Below, piece after piece: positions 21,586 through 60,566 of a stretch of 64,000 nucleotides of DNA (position 1 is its first letter; each line of letters opens with the position of its first letter). Both the position numbers and the translations under genes were made by a program. This DNA comes from Oscillospiraceae bacterium (lineage in GTDB: Bacteria > Bacillota > Clostridia > Oscillospirales > Oscillospiraceae), in contig CACZDN010000027.1 in the NCBI GenBank assembly GCA_902779945.1, forward strand, positions 1 to 64,000. The letters are read 5' to 3'. Under the pieces are notes generated by a model that worked only from the letters and a program-made list of their open reading frames with translations, did not search any database and was not told the DNA's origin.

Positions 21586-21758
21586 AAGGCAACACCACAT
21601 AATTCGGCGAGAGCGAATCCTGAGAAAATTTGGGTTCTGATGAAGGCATTTTTTTGCAGGAATACTTTGTGTATTTCAAGAAAAAGTGACAAAATCGTGA
21701 CAAAATCAGAGCGCGGATTTTCCAGGAGGCGCCGATGGCGGATTGTGCGGTGTTGCCT
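21586..21758 (+). repeat. MITE-A copy 1 (about 173 bp)
   Basis: Ends AAGGCAACACC / GGTGTTGCCT. The interior has the family core GAGAAAATTTGGGTTCTGA, ATACTTTGTGTATTTCAAGA and GGCGGATTGTGCGG. No coding capacity for a transposase. It lies between two AT-rich repeat blocks. Confidence 0.9.
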
Positions 21759-30387: not shown

Positions 30388-30550
30388 AAGGCAATACCGC
30401 ATAATTCGGCAAGAGCAGATCCTGAGAAAATTTGAGTTCTGATAAAGGCAGTTTTTCGCAGATGTACTTTGTGTACCTCAAGAAAAAGTGACGAAATCAG
30501 GGCACAAATTTTCCAGGAGATGCCGAAGGCGGATTGTGCGGTGTTGCCTT
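30388..30550 (+). repeat. MITE-A copy 2 (163 bp)
   Basis: Ends AAGGCAATACCGC / GCGGTGTTGCCTT. It has replaced the 3' end of the neighbouring hydrolase gene, providing its last 17 codons and stop. Confidence 0.92.
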
Positions 30551-34846: not shown

Positions 34847-35920
34847 TCACCCGAGGCCGCGCTCGTTGAGCCATGCCTCAATATGATCTGCGATCTCCTG
34901 ATTGTTCAGCTCCTGGAACATGAAGTGGCTGTTGCCGGTGATGCCGATCTTCGGCAGGTCGATGACCGTCGCGTCACCGCCGTCCGCGTTATACTGCTCG
35001 GCGAAGGCGATCGCGCCGTCCCGGATCATCTTCCAGAAGCCCGTTGAAGCGATATCCTCCGGACCGTTGTCGATGTAATCGCCGAAATAGAGGATAACGG
35101 GGATCTTCGCCTCCAGGAGACGTGTATACTGCTCGGTGCCTGGCTGGGGCGCTCCGCCGGGCTCGATCGCCACGATGGCCGCGATGTTTTCGACTGCCAC
35201 GTCCCAGCCGACAGCGCCGCCCTGGGAATGGGTGATGAACACAGCCTTCTGTCCGCTGCGCGCCGCAGCTTCCTTCAGCACCTCGCCCATTGCCTCAGCT
35301 GCGACCGTCTGGTTAAAGCTGCCCGTGTTCGGCGTCATCTGGCGGAAGAACTGATCCTGTGCCGCATCCCCCTCGGGGAACTGGCTGCCCTCGTAGCGTT
35401 CCGGCGCCACTCGGCCGATACGGAAATGGGTGTACCAGGCCTGATCGCCAGGCTTATAGTCCTTGGAATCCTCTGCCCAGGCATCGAGGAAGCCGTCCGC
35501 AGTCATGGACACGGCAGCGCCCGCTTCACCGCGGCGGGGCTGATCCACAAGATAGGCCGCATGCCCGTCGCGCAGGAACATGGTGGCCCAGCCGTCGCGT
35601 CCGTCGGGAGTGGTCATCCAGCCCATGCGGGACTGGCCATAGCCGTGCAGGTAGACGATGGGCGCGCCTGTTTCCTCCGCGGGGATCTGGTAGAATACGT
35701 TCGCGTGATCCACATGGGCGGTATTGCCAGCACGGGTAACATCCAGCCAGTTCTGCGTGGGATCATACTCGCCTTCGACCGGCTCCGTAACGGTACCTCC
35801 TGCCGAAAAATACCCCTGCTCCGCGATTATGAGCGGTGCCTTGGCTTCCTCCGCGAAGGCCGCAGCCGAGAGGCTGAGCAGCATCACAATTGTGAGAAAA
35901 ATTGCAATCGTCTTTTTCAT
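34847..35920 (-). CDS. Exported alpha/beta hydrolase
   Basis: 357 aa with a signal peptide (cleavage near AAAFAEE). VYLHGYGQSR is the oxyanion loop, FITHSQGGAVG the nucleophile elbow (GxSxG-like HSQGG), and GNSHFMF probably supplies the catalytic His. First gene of the unit with the aldo/keto reductase; 53 nt behind module B. Probably cleaves an ester outside the cell. Confidence 0.88.
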   Translation of the reverse strand: MKKTIAIFLTIVMLLSLSAAAFAEEAKAPLIIAEQGYFSAGGTVTEPVEGEYDPTQNWLDVTRAGNTAHVDHANVFYQIPAEETGAPIVYLHGYGQSRMGWMTTPDGRDGWATMFLRDGHAAYLVDQPRRGEAGAAVSMTADGFLDAWAEDSKDYKPGDQAWYTHFRIGRVAPERYEGSQFPEGDAAQDQFFRQMTPNTGSFNQTVAAEAMGEVLKEAAARSGQKAVFITHSQGGAVGWDVAVENIAAIVAIEPGGAPQPGTEQYTRLLEAKIPVILYFGDYIDNGPEDIASTGFWKMIRDGAIAFAEQYNADGGDATVIDLPKIGITGNSHFMFQELNNQEIADHIEAWLNERGLG

Positions 35921-39882: not shown

Positions 39883-40479
39883 TTATGCAGTTTTGGTCAT
39901 TTTGCCAGCCACCTGGTACATACTCTCATCCGAGATCACTGTGGTAATACTCAGGTATTTCCCGAAGATCGCGGCCAGGTCGTCCGCCGGCATGAGGCCG
40001 TTGGAGACATGGCTTGCCGTGCCGTGGTGGTGGGCGTCGATCTTCTCGCGGCTCATGCCGTGGGCCACCGTCAGGGTTCCGTCGGGCTTGAGAAGGCCCG
40101 AAAGTGTCCGGATCAGGCGCTCCGGATCGGGGAAATGCGGGAAGGCGTTGTAGACCACAATACAGTCAAACTTTCTGTCAAAGGCTGTCGCCTCCACATC
40201 GCCGCTGAGGATCGTGACGCGCTCCCGCTTAAACTTCTCCTTTGCGATCTCCGCCATCTTCGGGGAGATGTCGATGCCGGTGACGGATGCAGCCTTCCGC
40301 TTTAAGTAATCCGGGATCAGCACGCCGGTGCCGCAGGCCACGTCCAGAATGTCCTTCCCTTCCGTGACTCCGGCGTTATCCAGAATGATGCCGATGATCT
40401 CGTCGCTGCGGATCATCTCCGCGTCCCAACCGGGCGCCAGGCGGTCAAAGAATTCGATGACTTCTTTTTTCTCGATCAT
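39883..40479 (-). CDS. Class I SAM-dependent methyltransferase
   Basis: 198 aa. Motif I is DILDVACGTGVLIPDYL, with the SAM acidic residue in VTGIDISPKM and motif IV FDCIVVYNAFPHFPD. It is the last gene of a metal/siderophore-type ABC operon, 3 nt after the binding-protein stop. Methyltransferases in this position occur with FecCD-type transporters in Firmicutes, but the substrate is unknown; it may modify the imported chelator. The DAHHHGTASH histidine cluster (near residue 151) is notable for possible metal contact. Confidence 0.88.
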   Translation of the reverse strand: MIEKKEVIEFFDRLAPGWDAEMIRSDEIIGIILDNAGVTEGKDILDVACGTGVLIPDYLKRKAASVTGIDISPKMAEIAKEKFKRERVTILSGDVEATAFDRKFDCIVVYNAFPHFPDPERLIRTLSGLLKPDGTLTVAHGMSREKIDAHHHGTASHVSNGLMPADDLAAIFGKYLSITTVISDESMYQVAGKMTKTA

Positions 40480-40482
40480 GGC

Positions 40483-41628
40483 TTATCCGAAGAAGGTTGC
40501 CGTGTCGATCTGCTGGTATCCGCCGAAGCTGGAGGGGGCGGCTGCGATCTGCTCGGCAAGATCCAGCCCAAAGAAGGCCTGTGTGACCTCATTGGTCTTG
40601 GCCGTCATGTCGATGTCCGCAAAGAGCTCGGGATACACGGTCTTCGCGATGAACCAGGTGTTGATGAGGGCGATCTCATAGTTTGTGTAGTAGGCGTTGT
40701 AGGCCATCTCGAGGTACACATCGCCATTGCGCCAGGCCTTGCAGGTATCGAACATGTCGGGGGTCTCGGCATAGAGGGGCTTGATGTTCTTGACCGCGGC
40801 AGCGTCCATGATGATGATGTCCATATCCTCACCGAGCGCCACGAACTTCTCCTCCTCAATGGCCTGGATGCCGGGGGCAGCCAGATCGGTGACGGCGTTC
40901 CTGACGTTTGCCACATTGAAGGAGATGTAGTTCTGCGCGGTCATGAGGTGGTTGGTGGTGCCCCAGTTGCCGAGGCCGCAGATGTACACGGAGGGCTTGT
41001 CCGCGTCGGCAACATCGGCGGTGCGGCGGGAGATCTCCGCGCGCTCACTTTCAATGAAGGATACAAGCGCCTCAGCCTTCTCCTCGTTCTGGAAGATGGT
41101 GCCGAGCATGCGCATGGTGCCGAAGAAGTTTTCATCAAACACGCCGCCGGGGCCGGCCTTCAGGGTGATGACGGGCACGCCGAGCTGCTCCTGCAGGGCG
41201 TCTTCCTTCTCCACATCCTCATACTCGGAGATGACGATGTCGGGATTGCAGGCGAGGATCTTCTCCGCCTCGGCCGTCTGCGCCTGGGGACCGCCGACGC
41301 CGCAGGAGGGCAGGGTTTTGAAGCTCTCGCCGTAGGCCATCATATAGGGGCGGGCCACGGAGTCGAACATTTTGGGACGCTCGGCAAGGGAGGTGTTGTC
41401 AATGTCCTCCACGCCGCACAGCAGGCTCACATCGCCGATATAGCTGTACATGCGCAGGGCGCCCGCGCCGATGCAGACCACGCGCTGATAACTGCCGGGC
41501 GTGACCGTGACCTCGCGGCCGATCATATCCGTGACGGTGATTTCATCCGCCGCAAACGCCGTGCCGGAAAAAGCGCACAGGCCCAGCAGCAGGGTCAATG
41601 TCAGGATCAGGGTGATTGCTTTTTTCAT
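40483..41628 (-). CDS. Iron-siderophore/cobalamin-type ABC transporter substrate-binding protein
   Basis: 381 aa with signal peptide (cleavage near TAFAADE; no lipobox). Class III binding-protein features: VTDMIGREVTVTPGSYQRVVCIG at the start of the mature part (shown as motif VTDMIGREV), DIVISEY and a long connecting helix. The family takes up iron chelates, haem, cobalamin or other metal complexes. Which one is not clear. Its ATG overlaps the ATPase stop by 4 nt. It appears to be secreted without an anchor, which is unusual for a Gram-positive organism. Confidence 0.9.
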   Translation of the reverse strand: MKKAITLILTLTLLLGLCAFSGTAFAADEITVTDMIGREVTVTPGSYQRVVCIGAGALRMYSYIGDVSLLCGVEDIDNTSLAERPKMFDSVARPYMMAYGESFKTLPSCGVGGPQAQTAEAEKILACNPDIVISEYEDVEKEDALQEQLGVPVITLKAGPGGVFDENFFGTMRMLGTIFQNEEKAEALVSFIESERAEISRRTADVADADKPSVYICGLGNWGTTNHLMTAQNYISFNVANVRNAVTDLAAPGIQAIEEEKFVALGEDMDIIIMDAAAVKNIKPLYAETPDMFDTCKAWRNGDVYLEMAYNAYYTNYEIALINTWFIAKTVYPELFADIDMTAKTNEVTQAFFGLDLAEQIAAAPSSFGGYQQIDTATFFG

Positions 41629-42392
41629 AGTTTGTGACCTCCGTTTATGATGATTTTTTTGCCTTCTATCTGCGCGATGCGGACCTCCGCATCAAAGGTC
41701 TCCCGAATGACTTCCTCCGTGACGATCTCCGCTCCTCCGGCATGCGTGATCTTCCCGTTTTTCATGAAGAAGAAGCGGTCGCCCAGATCAAGCGCCTGAT
41801 TGAGATCGTGCAGGGACGTGAGGATGGCGATGCCCTTTTCCCTTGCCGCGCGGCGGGCCTCGTCGATGATAAGCTGCTCGTTGGCAATATCCAGATTGCC
41901 GGTTGGTTCATCGAACACCAAAAGGCGCGGCTCCTGCGCAAGCGCCCGGGCAATGGCGATCTTCTGGCGCTCGCCGCCGGAGAGCTGTTCCACATTCCGG
42001 GCGGCGTAGTCCTCCAGCTTCATATCCCGGAGGATGGCTTCGACCGCGGCTTCGTCCTCCTTCCCGGCCTTGTAGCCGAAGTAAGAGACTCTGCCCATGA
42101 GCACCGTATCAAAGACGCTCAGGGCGCCGAAGTGGATGCTCTGCGGCACATAGGCGATGCGCCGCGCCCGCTCTCTGCGGCTGAGCCTTAAGAGATCTTC
42201 CCCGTCAAAACGGATGCTGCCGCTCTCCGGCTTCCGGATGCCGAGGATGTTCTTGAAAAGCGTCGTCTTGCCGGAGCCGTTTTTGCCCAGCAGGATGCCG
42301 ATCTCCCCGTCGCGGAGGGTCAGGTTTACCCCGTCCAGCACCATCGGCGCACGGCGGGAGTAGCGAAAGCACAGGTCTTGAATTTCCAGCAT
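41625..42392 (-). CDS. FecE/BtuD-type ABC transporter ATPase
   Basis: 255 aa from the ATG at 42392, which overlaps the permease TGA by one base (TGATG). Walker A LGKNGSGKTTLFKN, signature LSGGERQKIAIARAL, Walker B LLVFDEPTGNLD, H-loop TSLHDLNQA. Energises the adjacent FecCD-type permease. Confidence 0.95.
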   Translation of the reverse strand: MLEIQDLCFRYSRRAPMVLDGVNLTLRDGEIGILLGKNGSGKTTLFKNILGIRKPESGSIRFDGEDLLRLSRRERARRIAYVPQSIHFGALSVFDTVLMGRVSYFGYKAGKEDEAAVEAILRDMKLEDYAARNVEQLSGGERQKIAIARALAQEPRLLVFDEPTGNLDIANEQLIIDEARRAAREKGIAILTSLHDLNQALDLGDRFFFMKNGKITHAGGAEIVTEEVIRETFDAEVRIAQIEGKKIIINGGHKL

Positions 42393-43456
42393 CAGTCGTG
42401 CTCCCCCTTCCGTGTAAAGATAATGGCGAGGAAGAAGGGCGCGCCGAGCAGCGACGTGATCGCGCCCACCGGCAGGGCCGAACCGTTGCCCATGCTGCGG
42501 GAGAGGGTATCGGCCAGCAGAAGCAGCACGCTCCCGCTCAGGGCCGAGGCCGGGACGGAGACGCGGTGATCCTGCCCCAAAAGACGTTTTGTCACATGGG
42601 GGCAGATGATGCCCACAAAGCCGATGATGCCGAGGAAGGACACGCACACCGCCGTGATGACGGAGGCCAGCAGCATGGACACGAAGCGGAGCCTGTCCAC
42701 CGCCACGCCCATGCTCCTGGCCGCGGCGTCGCCGCTCAGAAGGGCGTTGAACTGCCAGCTCATAAGCGTGAAGAACAGAAGTCCCGCCAGCACCACGACC
42801 GCCATGATGCAGTCCGTGCGGTAGGTGGCACGGCCCAGGTCGCCGAAGGTCCAGATCACCGCGGCGGAGAGGCCGACGTCGGTGGCGTAAAACTGCAGAA
42901 TCGTGGTCGCCGCCGTCCACACGGAGCCGATGGCGATACCCGCCAGCACCACCACGCCCGGCTGGAAGGCCCGCAGGCGGCAGAGGCCGAGGATCAGCAG
43001 GATCGAGACCGTGGAAAACAGGAACGCCATCAGGGACGTGGCATAGGGATTGGCACCCACGGTATAGCTCGACAAGTGGTTTCCCGTATCCAGAAAGCCG
43101 CCGGCAAAGGCGATGATGGAGAGATTCGCGCCGAACACCGCCGCGTTGGACACGCCCAGCGTGGAGGGCGAGGCCATGGGGTTATTGAGGTCGGTCTGCA
43201 TGATGAGGCCTGAGATCGACAGACCCGCCCCGGCGATGATGGCCGCCAGCACGCGCGGAATGCGGATGTTCCAGATGATGCGCACCTGGGCGGCACTCCC
43301 CTTTTTTGCAAGAGCCGCAAAGCACTCCGCAACAGTCATATGAGAAGAACCCACGAACAGGCACACAAAGGCCAGCACGATCACCGCCAAAGTGAGCAGG
43401 ATCAGTGCCGTTCGGTTTCGTCTTCTGTTTTTGGTCAGATCAGATTGCACTCTCAT
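42392..43456 (-). CDS. FecCD-family ABC transporter permease
   Basis: 354 aa from the ATG at 43456. The longer open frame reads the palindromic leader and is unlikely. About nine to ten membrane helices; conserved FecCD segments IPRVLAAIIAGAGLSISGLI and GIIGFVGIICPHVTKRLLG. The only permease, so a homodimer is expected. First gene of the operon with ATPase, binding protein and methyltransferase. The leader contains palindrome copy 1, and palindrome 2 abuts the promoter. Confidence 0.93.
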   Translation of the reverse strand: MRVQSDLTKNRRRNRTALILLTLAVIVLAFVCLFVGSSHMTVAECFAALAKKGSAAQVRIIWNIRIPRVLAAIIAGAGLSISGLIMQTDLNNPMASPSTLGVSNAAVFGANLSIIAFAGGFLDTGNHLSSYTVGANPYATSLMAFLFSTVSILLILGLCRLRAFQPGVVVLAGIAIGSVWTAATTILQFYATDVGLSAAVIWTFGDLGRATYRTDCIMAVVVLAGLLFFTLMSWQFNALLSGDAAARSMGVAVDRLRFVSMLLASVITAVCVSFLGIIGFVGIICPHVTKRLLGQDHRVSVPASALSGSVLLLLADTLSRSMGNGSALPVGAITSLLGAPFFLAIIFTRKGEHD

Positions 43457-43492
43457 GAGGACATGATATCCTCTCGGGATCGGCTCCACAAG

Positions 43493-43507
43493 CCCCCCGG
43501 GGGGATA
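43493..43507 (-). promoter_or_regulatory. TATCCCCC/CCGGGG palindrome, copy 1
   Basis: ATATCCCCCCGGGGGG on the minus strand, in the leader 37 nt before the permease start. First of five related sites between the ABC operon and the CsoR-like gene. Confidence 0.7.
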
Positions 43508-43532
43508 TTTTTTGAAGAAAAACCATGATAAC

Positions 43533-43559
43533 GCCCTCCGTGTGACCGGCACGGAGGGC
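43533..43559 (-). other. Leader hairpin of the ABC operon
   Basis: A perfect 10-bp stem GCCCTCCGTG / CACGGAGGGC with a 7-nt loop within the about 200-nt 5' leader. There is no T tail, so it is not a clear terminator. It may take part in leader-mediated control. Confidence 0.5.
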
Positions 43560-43660
43560 TCAGCAAGAGAGATCTTTGATTGCCGTCACGCGCAGAGAGG
43601 TGTAAATGCACGTTGGGATGAGGGAGCCCCTGGCAATCATCAAGCATCTGATCTGCTGAA

Positions 43661-43689
43661 AGTATAGCAGAAAAACGCTCTGCGCGAAA
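43661..43689 (-). promoter_or_regulatory. Candidate promoter of the FecCD ABC operon
   Basis: TATACT (43661-43666) with a weak TTTCGC -35 (43684-43689), spacer 17 nt. Palindrome copy 2 starts 1 nt upstream of the -35. Confidence 0.55.
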
Positions 43690-43690
43690 G

Positions 43691-43751
43691 CCCCCGGGGG
43701 GGATACAAATTACACTTTTTTGATGTCGCCGCCGTATCCCCCTCCGGGGTT
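43691..43751. promoter_or_regulatory. TATCCCCC/CCGGGG palindromes, copies 2 and 3 (inverted pair)
   Basis: Copy 2 at 43691-43706 (minus: GTATCCCCCCCGGGGG) and copy 3 at 43734-43751 (plus: GTATCCCCCTCCGGGGTT) face each other across 27 nt. CsoR/RcnR-family operators are G/C tracts flanked by TA-containing arms, and a CsoR-like gene lies at 44153. Binding is inferred, not shown. Confidence 0.65.
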
Positions 43752-43878
43752 ATTTCAGGCATTTTGCTGATTTTTAGCCTGAATATGCAGCCTGGCTTCC
43801 CACTTTTTTGAATACCGAAGCTTCAACTCTGGCATTTTGGCGGGTGAGCTGCCCCCTTTTTCGTCACTTTGCTGATTT

Positions 43879-43932
43879 AACCCCGGCAGGGGGATGTATT
43901 CGGTACCAATTCTGTATCCCCCCACCGGGGTT
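43879..43932. promoter_or_regulatory. TATCCCCC/CCGGGG palindromes, copies 4 and 5 (inverted pair)
   Basis: Copy 4 (43879-43898, minus orientation ACATCCCCCTGCCGGGGTT) and copy 5 (43914-43932, GTATCCCCCCACCGGGGTT) form an imperfect inverted repeat of about 20 bp per arm. They lie 34 nt before MITE-A copy 3, upstream of the CsoR-like gene. 43752-43878 between the pairs holds no gene. Confidence 0.65.
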
Positions 43933-43965
43933 GTGGACTTTCCCTGAGACAGCTACAATAGCGTT

Positions 43966-44128
43966 AAGGCAACACCGCACAATTCGGCGAGAGCAAATTC
44001 CGAGAAAAATTGGGTTCTGACGATGGCATTTTTTTGCAGGAATACTTTGTGTATTGCAAGAAAAAGTGACGAAGTCAGGGCGCAATTTTTCCGGGAGGCG
44101 CCGATGGCGGATTGTGCGGTGTTGCCTT
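43966..44128 (+). repeat. MITE-A copy 3 (163 bp)
   Basis: Ends AAGGCAACACCGCAC / GTGCGGTGTTGCCTT. Inserted between the palindrome cluster and the CsoR-like gene, so it now forms the leader of that gene. Confidence 0.93.
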
Positions 44129-44152
44129 AAAATGGAAAGCGAGAACTGCCCA

Positions 44153-44437
44153 ATGGACAACAGGAAAAAGCCCGCGCAGTACGATGCGCATTATATGTCA
44201 AGTCGTATGTCACGCACCATCGGCCATATGAAGCTCGTGCGCAGCATGGTCGAGGAAGGTGTGGACTGTACCGAAGTTCTGATACAGCTTGCCTCTGTGC
44301 GCGGACAGCTTGACAGCATCTGCAGCAGTTTCATGTCTCAGTATGCCGAGCAGTTTGCCGAGGAATACCGCAAAACCGGAGATACGGCACTGATCGAGGC
44401 CTTCAAGGCAGAACTCAACCGCGCGATAAGACAATAG
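44153..44437 (+). CDS. CsoR/RcnR/FrmR-family metal-sensing repressor, atypical ligand set
   Basis: 94 aa from ATG 44153; an ATG at 44132, directly after the MITE, is an alternative. The family's helical core is clear: MSRTIGHMKLVRSMVEEGVDC and the VLIQLASVRGQLDS segment. Cys39 corresponds to the conserved first-helix Cys. The positions that are His and Cys in copper CsoR are Tyr64 and Phe68, so the Cu(I), Ni(II)/Co(II) and persulfide fingerprints are not met. It precedes two small membrane-protein genes, and five CsoR-style palindromes lie upstream. Likely repressor of this operon and the divergent ABC transporter; its inducer is unknown. Confidence 0.88.
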   Translation: MDNRKKPAQYDAHYMSSRMSRTIGHMKLVRSMVEEGVDCTEVLIQLASVRGQLDSICSSFMSQYAEQFAEEYRKTGDTALIEAFKAELNRAIRQ

Positions 44438-44490
44438 TGCACAGCGGCAGTCAGCCGTTTGCAAATAAAACCATTTGGGAGGAACATAGT

Positions 44491-44907
44491 ATGGCATGTT
44501 TTCTGGTTTCCGCCGCTGAGGCCGTTGTGGTCACTGCGGCCGCACAGATTACGAAAAACAACGAGATGAAGGCCGACTCTCAGAAGCTGGCGAAGAAAGC
44601 CGCTGTCGAGACCAGGCAGGAGAAGCATCTCCCCTGGAGCAAGAAGCTCATGATCCTCGCGCAGCTTCTGTGGGGCGGCGCGTTCCTGCTCTGCTTTGAG
44701 CACATCTGGCACGGTGAAGTCGTCCCATGGTTCCCGTTCCTGACAGCGATGAATGATCCCGGTGACACAGCGGAGATGCTGCACGAGATGAGCACCATCG
44801 GCGTCACCATGGCGATCATTGTAACCGTCACATGGGCGATCATGATGTTTGTCACCGACAGGATCATGGAACGTCCGGATACGAAGCCGCAGAAGACCGC
44901 CGCGTAA
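44491..44907 (+). CDS. Small membrane protein linked to the CsoR-like regulator (138 aa)
   Basis: Start at 44491 by GGGAGG 8 nt upstream. An N-terminal hydrophobic stretch (1-18) is followed by a Lys-rich segment, then two to three helices (about 50-68, 100-125). The conserved-looking FEHIWHGEVVPWFPFLTA loop has two His and two Trp, and LHEMSTIG adds another His. These could bind metal in or near the membrane. I do not recognise a named family. It lies 12 nt before the next gene. Confidence 0.8.
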   Translation: MACFLVSAAEAVVVTAAAQITKNNEMKADSQKLAKKAAVETRQEKHLPWSKKLMILAQLLWGGAFLLCFEHIWHGEVVPWFPFLTAMNDPGDTAEMLHEMSTIGVTMAIIVTVTWAIMMFVTDRIMERPDTKPQKTAA

Positions 44908-44919
44908 GGAGGAAACGAC

Positions 44920-45240
44920 ATGACACTTCTTATCTGTGTATTTGCGGCGATTATCGCCACAGTCAAGTGGTATCAGCGCAAGGATGACAGCATGATGCCT
45001 GGCGTCCCCTGCGTGCTCTTCTGGGGCGCCTCCCTCATGTGGCTGGGCGACGCGATCTTTGAGTATGCGGAGCTCGGCACGGAGTACTTCGCTCCTGCCG
45101 CTGAGGATATGCTTAACGACGCCTTCCTCGGCCTCTCCGTTGTGGCTCTCGGCCTGATTCTCTGGCTCGTGATCCTGCTCATCAAGGACCCCAAGGACGT
45201 CGTCAAGGCGAGCCTGCGGAAGAAAGCGGCAAGCAAATAA
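44920..45240 (+). CDS. Small membrane protein, second partner (106 aa)
   Basis: GGAGGAAACGAC before the ATG. Three hydrophobic helices (about 1-16, 27-44, 68-88). Acidic residues within or next to membranes (LGDAIFEYAELGTEY) are distinctive. The C-terminus is basic. Function unknown. With the preceding gene it makes a plausible two-component membrane transporter or sensor under the CsoR-like protein. Confidence 0.78.
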   Translation: MTLLICVFAAIIATVKWYQRKDDSMMPGVPCVLFWGASLMWLGDAIFEYAELGTEYFAPAAEDMLNDAFLGLSVVALGLILWLVILLIKDPKDVVKASLRKKAASK

Positions 45241-57131: not shown

Positions 57132-57294
57132 AGGGCAGCACCGCACAATGCGCCTGCGGCATCTCCTGGAAAATTTGCGCCCTGATTTCGTCACTTATTC
57201 TTGAGGTACACAAAGTACATCTGCGAAAAAGCGCCTTTATCAGAACCCAAATTTTCTCAGGATCTGTTCTTGCCGAATTATGCGGTATTGCCCT
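57132..57294 (-). repeat. MITE-A copy 7 (163 bp, reverse)
   Basis: Ends AGGGCAGCACCGCAC / TGCGGTATTGCCCT, reverse orientation to copies 1-6. It lies between the response-regulator gene and the DUF1269-like gene; no other feature is visible in 57050-57310. Confidence 0.92.
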
Positions 57295-60406: not shown

Positions 60407-60566
60407 AAGGCAATACCGCATAATTCGGCAAGAGCAGATCCTGAGAAAAATTGGGTTCTGATGAAGATTTTTTTGCGGGAATACTTTGTGTATTGCAAGA
60501 AAAAGGCTCAAAATCAGAGCGCAATCTTCCGGGAGACGCCGACGGCGGATTGTGCGGTGTTGCCTT
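60407..60566 (+). repeat. MITE-A copy 8 (160 bp)
   Basis: Ends AAGGCAATACCGCA / GCGGTGTTGCCTT. The right end supplies the first two stop-codon bases of the adjoining SnoaL-like gene (TAA read on the minus strand). Confidence 0.93.

Follow-up and report, generated by a model that had tools for sequence, protein, structure and literature searches.

The locus described here raises the question of which regulator, and which metal, lies behind five G/C-rich palindromes that stand between two divergent operons. It is found in a stretch of 64,000 nucleotides from an Oscillospiraceae bacterium (assembly GCA_902779945.1, contig CACZDN010000027.1, positions 1 to 64,000 of the forward strand), and this whole stretch is referred to below as the window. 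The minus strand carries an operon for a FecCD-type permease, an ATPase, a substrate-binding protein (SBP) and a methyltransferase, and the plus strand carries csoR-mem1-mem2, which encodes a variant CsoR/RcnR-family protein and two small membrane proteins, Mem1 and Mem2. Comparison with related genomes gives good support to the view that the palindromes are CsoR-type operators in an activator position, and that the locus would be one node of a nickel-starvation regulon. The best reading of the sequences is that an InrS-like protein encoded outside the window activates these genes; for this reading we infer the binder, the activation, the metal response and the role of the variant paralogue.

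All five palindromes listed by an initial annotation of this DNA could be located, as could its two inverted pairs, in which the sites face each other with 44 bp (centres 43698/43742) and 34 bp (43888/43922) between centres. The form given for them, TATCCCCC-n-CCGGGG, is exact in two of the five, and the site placed at 43879 exists but spans 43881-43896 and begins CAT rather than TAT. The pattern YATCCCCC-N3-GGGG has three matches in the window against 0.01 expected and YATCCCCC-N4-GGGG has two against 0.02, the two together covering all five sites where about 0.03 would be expected in total, and none of 100 shuffles reached either count. A looser scan of the window added one match, at 35365, without regulon context; in the genome that owns the window the strict site is confined to the window, and the looser pattern gives four more short matches elsewhere. 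Three of the five sites are followed by a -10 box that begins 39 bp from the site start (+39), while the other two are accessory inverted sites. Sites and promoter elements are listed here with the strand and coordinates of the whole window, the two sites labelled class A ending in CTT.

43493-43507, minus strand: operator, class A, of fecCD promoter P2, TATCCCCCCGGGGGG-CTT, centre at about -42.5
43463-43468, minus strand: -10 box TATCAT of fecCD promoter P2, at +39 from the site start at 43507
43691-43705, minus strand: operator, class A, of fecCD promoter P1, TATCCCCCCCGGGGG-CTT
43661-43666, minus strand: -10 box TATACT of fecCD promoter P1, at +39 from the site start at 43705
43735-43749, plus strand: accessory inverted site facing 43691-43705, without a -10 box at +39
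43881-43896, minus strand: accessory inverted site facing 43915-43930, without a -10 box at +39
43915-43930, plus strand: operator of the csoR-mem1-mem2 promoter, TATCCCCCCACCGGGG followed by TTGTGG
43954-43959, plus strand: -10 box TACAAT of csoR-mem1-mem2, at +39 from the site start and 17 bp after TTGTGG

From this geometry the transcription start site of csoR-mem1-mem2 is predicted at 43966, and that of P1 at 43654. The start predicted for P2 (window 43456) is the A of the fecCD ATG, 51-52 bp from the site, and the same site-to-ATG spacing was called at three other loci (L161, L140 and L145), which suggests that the fecCD transcript from P2 would be leaderless. A reading of the sites as RNA elements was rejected, with no match to a riboswitch or other known RNA element in an Rfam scan of 36-50 kb at the gathering threshold and no hairpin loop left by a C6G6 palindrome.

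The strict site, YATCCCCCNNNGGGGCTT, is present in 81 of 149 related genomes, comprising 81 of the 91 from the same genus and none of the 58 others of the order, with one to eight strict sites in each of the 81; the reversed-pattern control gave zero in the rows shown. To read the genes behind the sites, 60 regions were fetched (59 around sites among the matches listed and one around a CsoR gene), together with 23 more around CsoR or Mem1 genes, and gene chains were taken from our own gene calling. The resulting 114 distinct class A sites, in which a pair of sites upstream of a single operon counts as two and 19 have no called gene within 600 bp, precede transport families (FecCD 27, Nik/Dpp-type permeases 16, NikM/CbiM-PDGLE 15, CbiQ 14, NikA-type SBP 11, MATE 4) and other families (AstE/AspA 10, CsoR family 7, FmdE 5, HypB 4, DUF364/4213 4). 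Operons for ATP-binding cassette (ABC) transporters of NikM/CbiM-CbiQ-NikO, NikA and FecCD type, as well as the InrS-like CsoR-family gene, are among those preceded by a site, and these counts place the operator upstream of nickel-import genes, as import activation of the InrS type calls for. Family identity was assessed on one representative each, ten proteins with Pfam and eight with NCBIfam: the HypB representative passes its equivalog cut-off (248 bits against 121), and the NikA-type SBP has a nickel SBP model as its best match, at 313 bits, below that model's cut-off of 600. No cobalamin riboswitch was found at the gathering threshold in 11 NikMQO loci. Because the site precedes Nik- and FecCD-type operons, HypB, FmdE, DUF364, methyltransferases and the InrS-like gene, the metal of the regulon is most likely nickel, which does not agree with the 'unknown metal or chelate' of the initial annotation.

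That annotation had also staked its proposal on the palindromes recurring at orthologous loci, and they are present at those examined. By reading, csoR loci of other species (L061, L063, L064, L066, L067 and L079) carry a similar inverted site pair upstream, as do loci with Mem1 only (L068-L071), and L072, L073 and L076 each show just one site, which is class A-like. Outside the genus, a class-wide sample of 391 genomes yielded seven sites in six other genomes, with the -10 box at +39 in six of the seven and at +40 in the seventh. By reading, all seven precede genes for methyltransferases, NikM-like, NikA-like or His-rich proteins, one of them behind an AraC-type gene. Two loci from another family (L191 and L197) have, again by reading, very His-rich proteins of 121-141 aa behind the site, adjoining a NikA-like binding protein.

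The spacing just described was measured on 112 sites ending in CTT, a set in which CTT was part of the selection and the -10 box was not. A TATAAT-like hexamer begins at +39 in 94 of them when at least four of six bases must match and in 67 when at least five must, compared with 22 and 7, respectively, at the next-best offset, and with none at +39 in the mirrored orientation at the five-base threshold. Base enrichment is seen for T and G at +36/+37, for C and A at +50/+51 (the predicted start) and for A before the site. Among 20 further sites that do not end in CTT, only that at window 43915 reaches five of six at +39, and one other reaches four; at least one promoter with this arrangement is found in each of 21 first-gene families. 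The -35 position (+16 to +21) is occupied by TTGYGG or TTCCGC, a poor hexamer, and since the -10 box begins at +39, the centre of the palindrome falls at about -42.5, beside this poor -35. CRP at -41.5 is the classical class II activator position, and the predicted geometry here is that of a class II activator. An alternative sigma factor was considered and thought unlikely, the -10 being TATAAT-like and at ordinary spacing from +16.

The same geometry bears on the simplest alternative, that a CsoR-family protein binds as an ordinary repressor, overlapping the promoter from the -35 side, with metal excess as the inducing condition. Contact of the site with the -35 hexamer speaks for this, as do a MATE transporter behind a few sites and the literature, in which most accounts of CsoR-family nickel sensors make them repressors (PMC7055735, PMC12724321). 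A repressor operator needs no fixed spacing, yet the -10 box is at +39 in most of these sites; moreover, the -35 hexamers are poor, the upstream flank is A-rich, and it is hard to see why excess nickel should induce importers and HypB. We consider repression unlikely, and turn to the regulator that activation would require.

NikR was found in none of the 92 genomes searched (control rings in 5 of 14) and was rejected as the binder. PF02583, the CsoR/RcnR family, is present in 54 of 57 same-genus genomes against 11 of 35 others; a 55-residue fragment of the domain also occurs in G031:C78. A genus-wide paralogue (family F12, encoded outside the window at G000:C17 in the owner genome) has a His-rich N-terminus and the set Cys, His at +25 and Cys at +29, its best sequence matches in the PDB being 6ahx (titled CsoRGz) and then InrS 5fmn. 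By a count of matches better than 1e-8, not each of which was read, it occurs in 80 of 91 same-genus genomes. At 22 loci chosen regardless of sites, 11 InrS-like genes carry a site upstream, and by reading three of six more genomes that have the gene and no strict site show a variant site that keeps the -10 spacing. Across the genus, gene and site are found together in 74 genomes, the gene only in 6, the site only in 7 and neither in 4 (Fisher p 0.017; these are draft genomes). All six site-bearing genomes outside the genus have PF02583, and five of the six have, by reading, the InrS-like type. In the owner genome the InrS-like gene (locus L082) lies behind a gene end that reads as the C-terminus of a MetK-like protein, and L243 and L244, with a site, have a similar upstream gene end; an S-adenosylmethionine (SAM) synthesis gene adjoining the putative regulator of many methyltransferases is a curious arrangement.

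The explanation towards which we lean as a whole is that of an InrS-like apo activator with a nickel-blind paralogue as modulator. The TATCCCCC(N)GGGGG palindrome would serve a CsoR/RcnR-family regulator as its operator, and that regulator is most likely the InrS-like protein. In metal-free form, at about -42.5 and upstream of a weak -35, this regulator most likely recruits RNA polymerase and would so turn on NikMQO, NikABCDE-type and FecCD-type import, hypB and csoR-mem1-mem2; on binding nickel it would be released, and import would be turned off. The CsoR-like protein of the window would be a co-regulated paralogue and probably a nickel-blind modulator of shared operators, as a competitor, a partner in co-tetramers or a constitutive binder. 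Several observations weigh against this explanation. In the AstE/AspA family the -10 box is at +39 in none of 10 promoters, a GATAC lying 1 bp closer by eye. The other 11 of the 22 InrS-like loci lack a site by the pattern used, as does the InrS-like gene of the owner genome itself; the seven site-only and six gene-only genomes make the association imperfect; and one genome (G422) has two sites where only GQ-type CsoR proteins were found. The CbiM and CbiQ models (S and T component) carry cobalt names. The class A right arm, GGGGGCTT, differs from the GGATA half-site on which NreA depends (PMC12724321), and RcnR, InrS at nrsD and DmeR are described as de-repressors in PMC7055735.

A second alternative, that an activator of another family, for example of Crp/Fnr type, binds the sites and the InrS-like gene is merely one of its targets, draws on some of the same facts: -42.5 is near the classical class II position, the InrS-like gene itself carries a site, and G422 has sites with no InrS-like gene detected. 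The G/C tract with a TA arm, however, resembles the type 1 operator of the CsoR family, with TATCC common to the NreA operator, and PF02583 is in every site-bearing genome outside the genus, compared with 11 of 35 genomes from other genera. The chain families read include a single other DNA-binding protein that recurs, a SpoIIID-like one at two sites, to which one AraC-type protein outside the genus can be added; a genome-wide search for other regulators was not part of the analysis. We regard a regulator of another family as improbable, and an InrS-like activator remains our preferred reading.

The place of the window's own CsoR-like protein can then be considered, for which the genes of the two operons are needed.

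39883-40479, minus strand: class I SAM-dependent methyltransferase, PF13649/PF08241, closing the fecCD operon
40483-41628, minus strand: exported substrate-binding protein, PF01497
41625-42392, minus strand: ABC ATPase of FecE/BtuD type, PF00005 at 123 bits, scanned as 41637-42392
42392-43456, minus strand: FecCD-family permease, PF01032 at 270 bits, start codon at the predicted P2 start site
43968-44126, strand not assigned: inverted-repeat element resembling a miniature inverted-repeat transposable element (MITE), in the csoR 5' untranslated region
44153-44437, plus strand: variant CsoR/RcnR-family protein of 94 aa, PF02583
44491-44907, plus strand: Mem1, small membrane protein, MACFLV...FEHIWHGEVVPWFPF
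44920-45240, plus strand: Mem2, small membrane protein, adjoining Mem1

The family assignment made earlier holds (PF02583 at 47.9 bits against a cut-off of 22.8), and counted from the Met at 44153 the protein has Cys39, Tyr64 and Phe68, as stated there. A start at 44132 was rejected, five relatives (at least 62% identity) aligning from residue 8, although a second copy in G066 aligns from residue 1. The window protein and eight relatives form nine rows with seven different sequences and group as one clade (support 100/100) on a long branch; all nine have Cys39 and Tyr64, and eight have Phe68, with Val in the ninth. The copper CsoR and InrS site (Cys, His at +25, Cys at +29) is incomplete, as Tyr64 and Phe68 accompany Cys39. 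The persulfide sensor CstR has its second Cys at the +25 position, where the variant has Tyr64, its Cys57 falling at +18, and the formaldehyde sensor FrmR uses an N-terminal Pro2 with Cys35, where the variant begins Met-Asp-Asn. The nickel/cobalt site of RcnR combines a Cys with His at +25 and +29 and an N-terminal His3 (PMC7055735 and general background); it is likewise lacking, given Tyr64 and Phe68. The variant has no His-rich tail. The ligand sets checked are incomplete in all nine rows, which agrees with the annotation's statement that Tyr64 and Phe68 stand where Cu, Ni/Co or persulfide sensors need His or Cys; the loss fits a nickel-blind paralogue as well as the new ligand class that it proposed. 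The ratio of nonsynonymous to synonymous substitution rates (dN/dS) is 0.12-0.18 in five of six pairs, two of these with dS above 1.5, and the sixth (L066 and L067) is saturated; these values indicate purifying selection, and decay of the variant was rejected on them. An AlphaFold2 model (predicted local distance difference test 81, predicted template modelling score 0.57) has helices at 12-34, 40-75 and 79-93, with InrS 5fmn as a weak best Foldseek match in the PDB (prob 0.97, E 0.11) and also as the best solved-structure match by sequence. The variant's own promoter has G/C-tract operators (43881 and 43915) that are kept at orthologues, and the palindromes do appear to be of CsoR type in kind, as first proposed.

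That the variant is itself the sensor of the locus, using Cys39 and new residues for a ligand new to the family, would account for Cys39 and a Tyr at the His position in every row, for the purifying selection and for the paired sites at its own promoter. It is found, however, in six of the 91 genomes of the genus when at least 60% identity is required (two more have it at 47%), against sites in 81, and the Mem1-only loci keep a similar paired promoter with no variant adjoining. A sensor role is quite unlikely in our view, and since far fewer genomes have the variant than have sites, it would not be the main regulator; it is best described from its sequence as a conserved paralogue that has lost the His and Cys ligands, consistent with the modulator proposed above.

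Mem1 was found in 18 of the 149 relatives and in 41 of 381 class-wide genomes. Among 29 class-wide loci read with short flanks, 28 have Mem2 next to Mem1 and 13 include a lar gene; in four of five loci from other families a lar gene follows directly. The neighbours outside the genus are larB, larC and larE (the first and last assigned by reading, larC by PF01969 as well), and because these nickel-pincer-cofactor genes adjoin Mem1-Mem2 in other families, the pair appears tied to nickel use. The LarC of the owner genome is located elsewhere (G000:C4); co-occurrence with LarC was set aside as a test of Mem1, LarC being common within the genus and so not discriminating. The annotation's uptake/export pair for an unknown chelate was rejected, as the regulon is nickel-type, Mem1-Mem2 often stand beside lar genes and no evidence of export was found. 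A regulon for cobalt or cobalamin, which the CbiM and CbiQ names in Pfam and NCBIfam and a corrinoid-associated model among the sub-cut-off matches of the window methyltransferase would favour, is very unlikely given the HypB equivalog, the lar genes beside Mem1-Mem2 (13/29 and 4/5 loci) and the absence of a cobalamin riboswitch from the 11 loci scanned.

The methyltransferases of the regulon fall into five groups (F1, F10, F13, F17 and F25) without an obvious substrate, with AstE/AspA-like hydrolases accompanying some of them; that of the window belongs to F10, found in 15 of the 114 class A gene chains. One idea is that a methylated nickel chelate lies behind these groups. The MITE-like copy begins 2 bp downstream of the start site predicted for csoR, and the orthologous promoters compared lack it; the family of this element also occurs in the window at 21588-21757, 30390-30548, 57134-57292 and 60409-60564, with 14 end matches. 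A tetrahydrofolate (THF) riboswitch at L134:5557-5652 is unrelated to the regulon.

What is chiefly known of CsoR-family metal sensors is de-repression of efflux genes, and a single activator-like geometry across a genus would make the family a route of nickel-import control in bacteria that lack NikR. More broadly, and tentatively, in this lineage of Clostridia, where no NikR was found, a CsoR/RcnR nickel sensor may have become a dedicated class II activator, acting as an apo tetramer at -42.5, with a metal-blind paralogue on paired inverted operators tuning it in some species. A nickel role is suggested for the five methyltransferase groups, DUF364, FmdE, AstE/AspA-like hydrolases and Mem1-Mem2. 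The variant offers a natural ligand-less CsoR, useful for asking what CsoR proteins do without metal, and the regulon an immediately testable promoter.

A literature search did not find a CsoR-family nickel-import regulon in Clostridia described. Of the known systems, RcnR, CsoR, CstR and FrmR share PF02583 with the window protein, in which their ligand sets are incomplete; they repress efflux or detoxification genes, and G/C-rich operators are described for RcnR and CsoR (PMC7055735, PMC12724321). NikR is present in fewer than half of NikABCDE bearers (PMC2667541), and its regulon likewise controls importers of NikABCDE and NikMNQO type; its operator, GTATGA-N16-TCATAC (PMC7055735), is unlike the one here. 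In lar operons outside the genus Mem1-Mem2 adjoin lar genes, whereas in the window they accompany the variant CsoR. NreA of Mesorhizobium (PMC12724321) has the operator TATCCYCtccrgGRGGATA in the -35/-10 spacer, from where it represses an efflux operon, and a leaderless transcript is described; the type 1 G/C operator starting TATCC is shared, as is the leaderless transcript, predicted here for fecCD P2, whereas the sites of the present regulon lie upstream of the -35 and at import operons. The closest parallel is InrS of Synechocystis PCC 6803, which, according to PMC7055735, binds upstream of nik and enhances nickel-import genes in a NikR-less host, and which, like the genus-wide paralogue, has a His-rich N-terminus plus Cys-His-Cys. 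The present case differs in that neither the His and Cys ligands nor the His-rich tail is found in the window protein, and in that several operons per genome share one promoter geometry. Enhancement of nickel import by InrS has thus already been reported in Synechocystis, and the regulon described here is a new form of a known theme.

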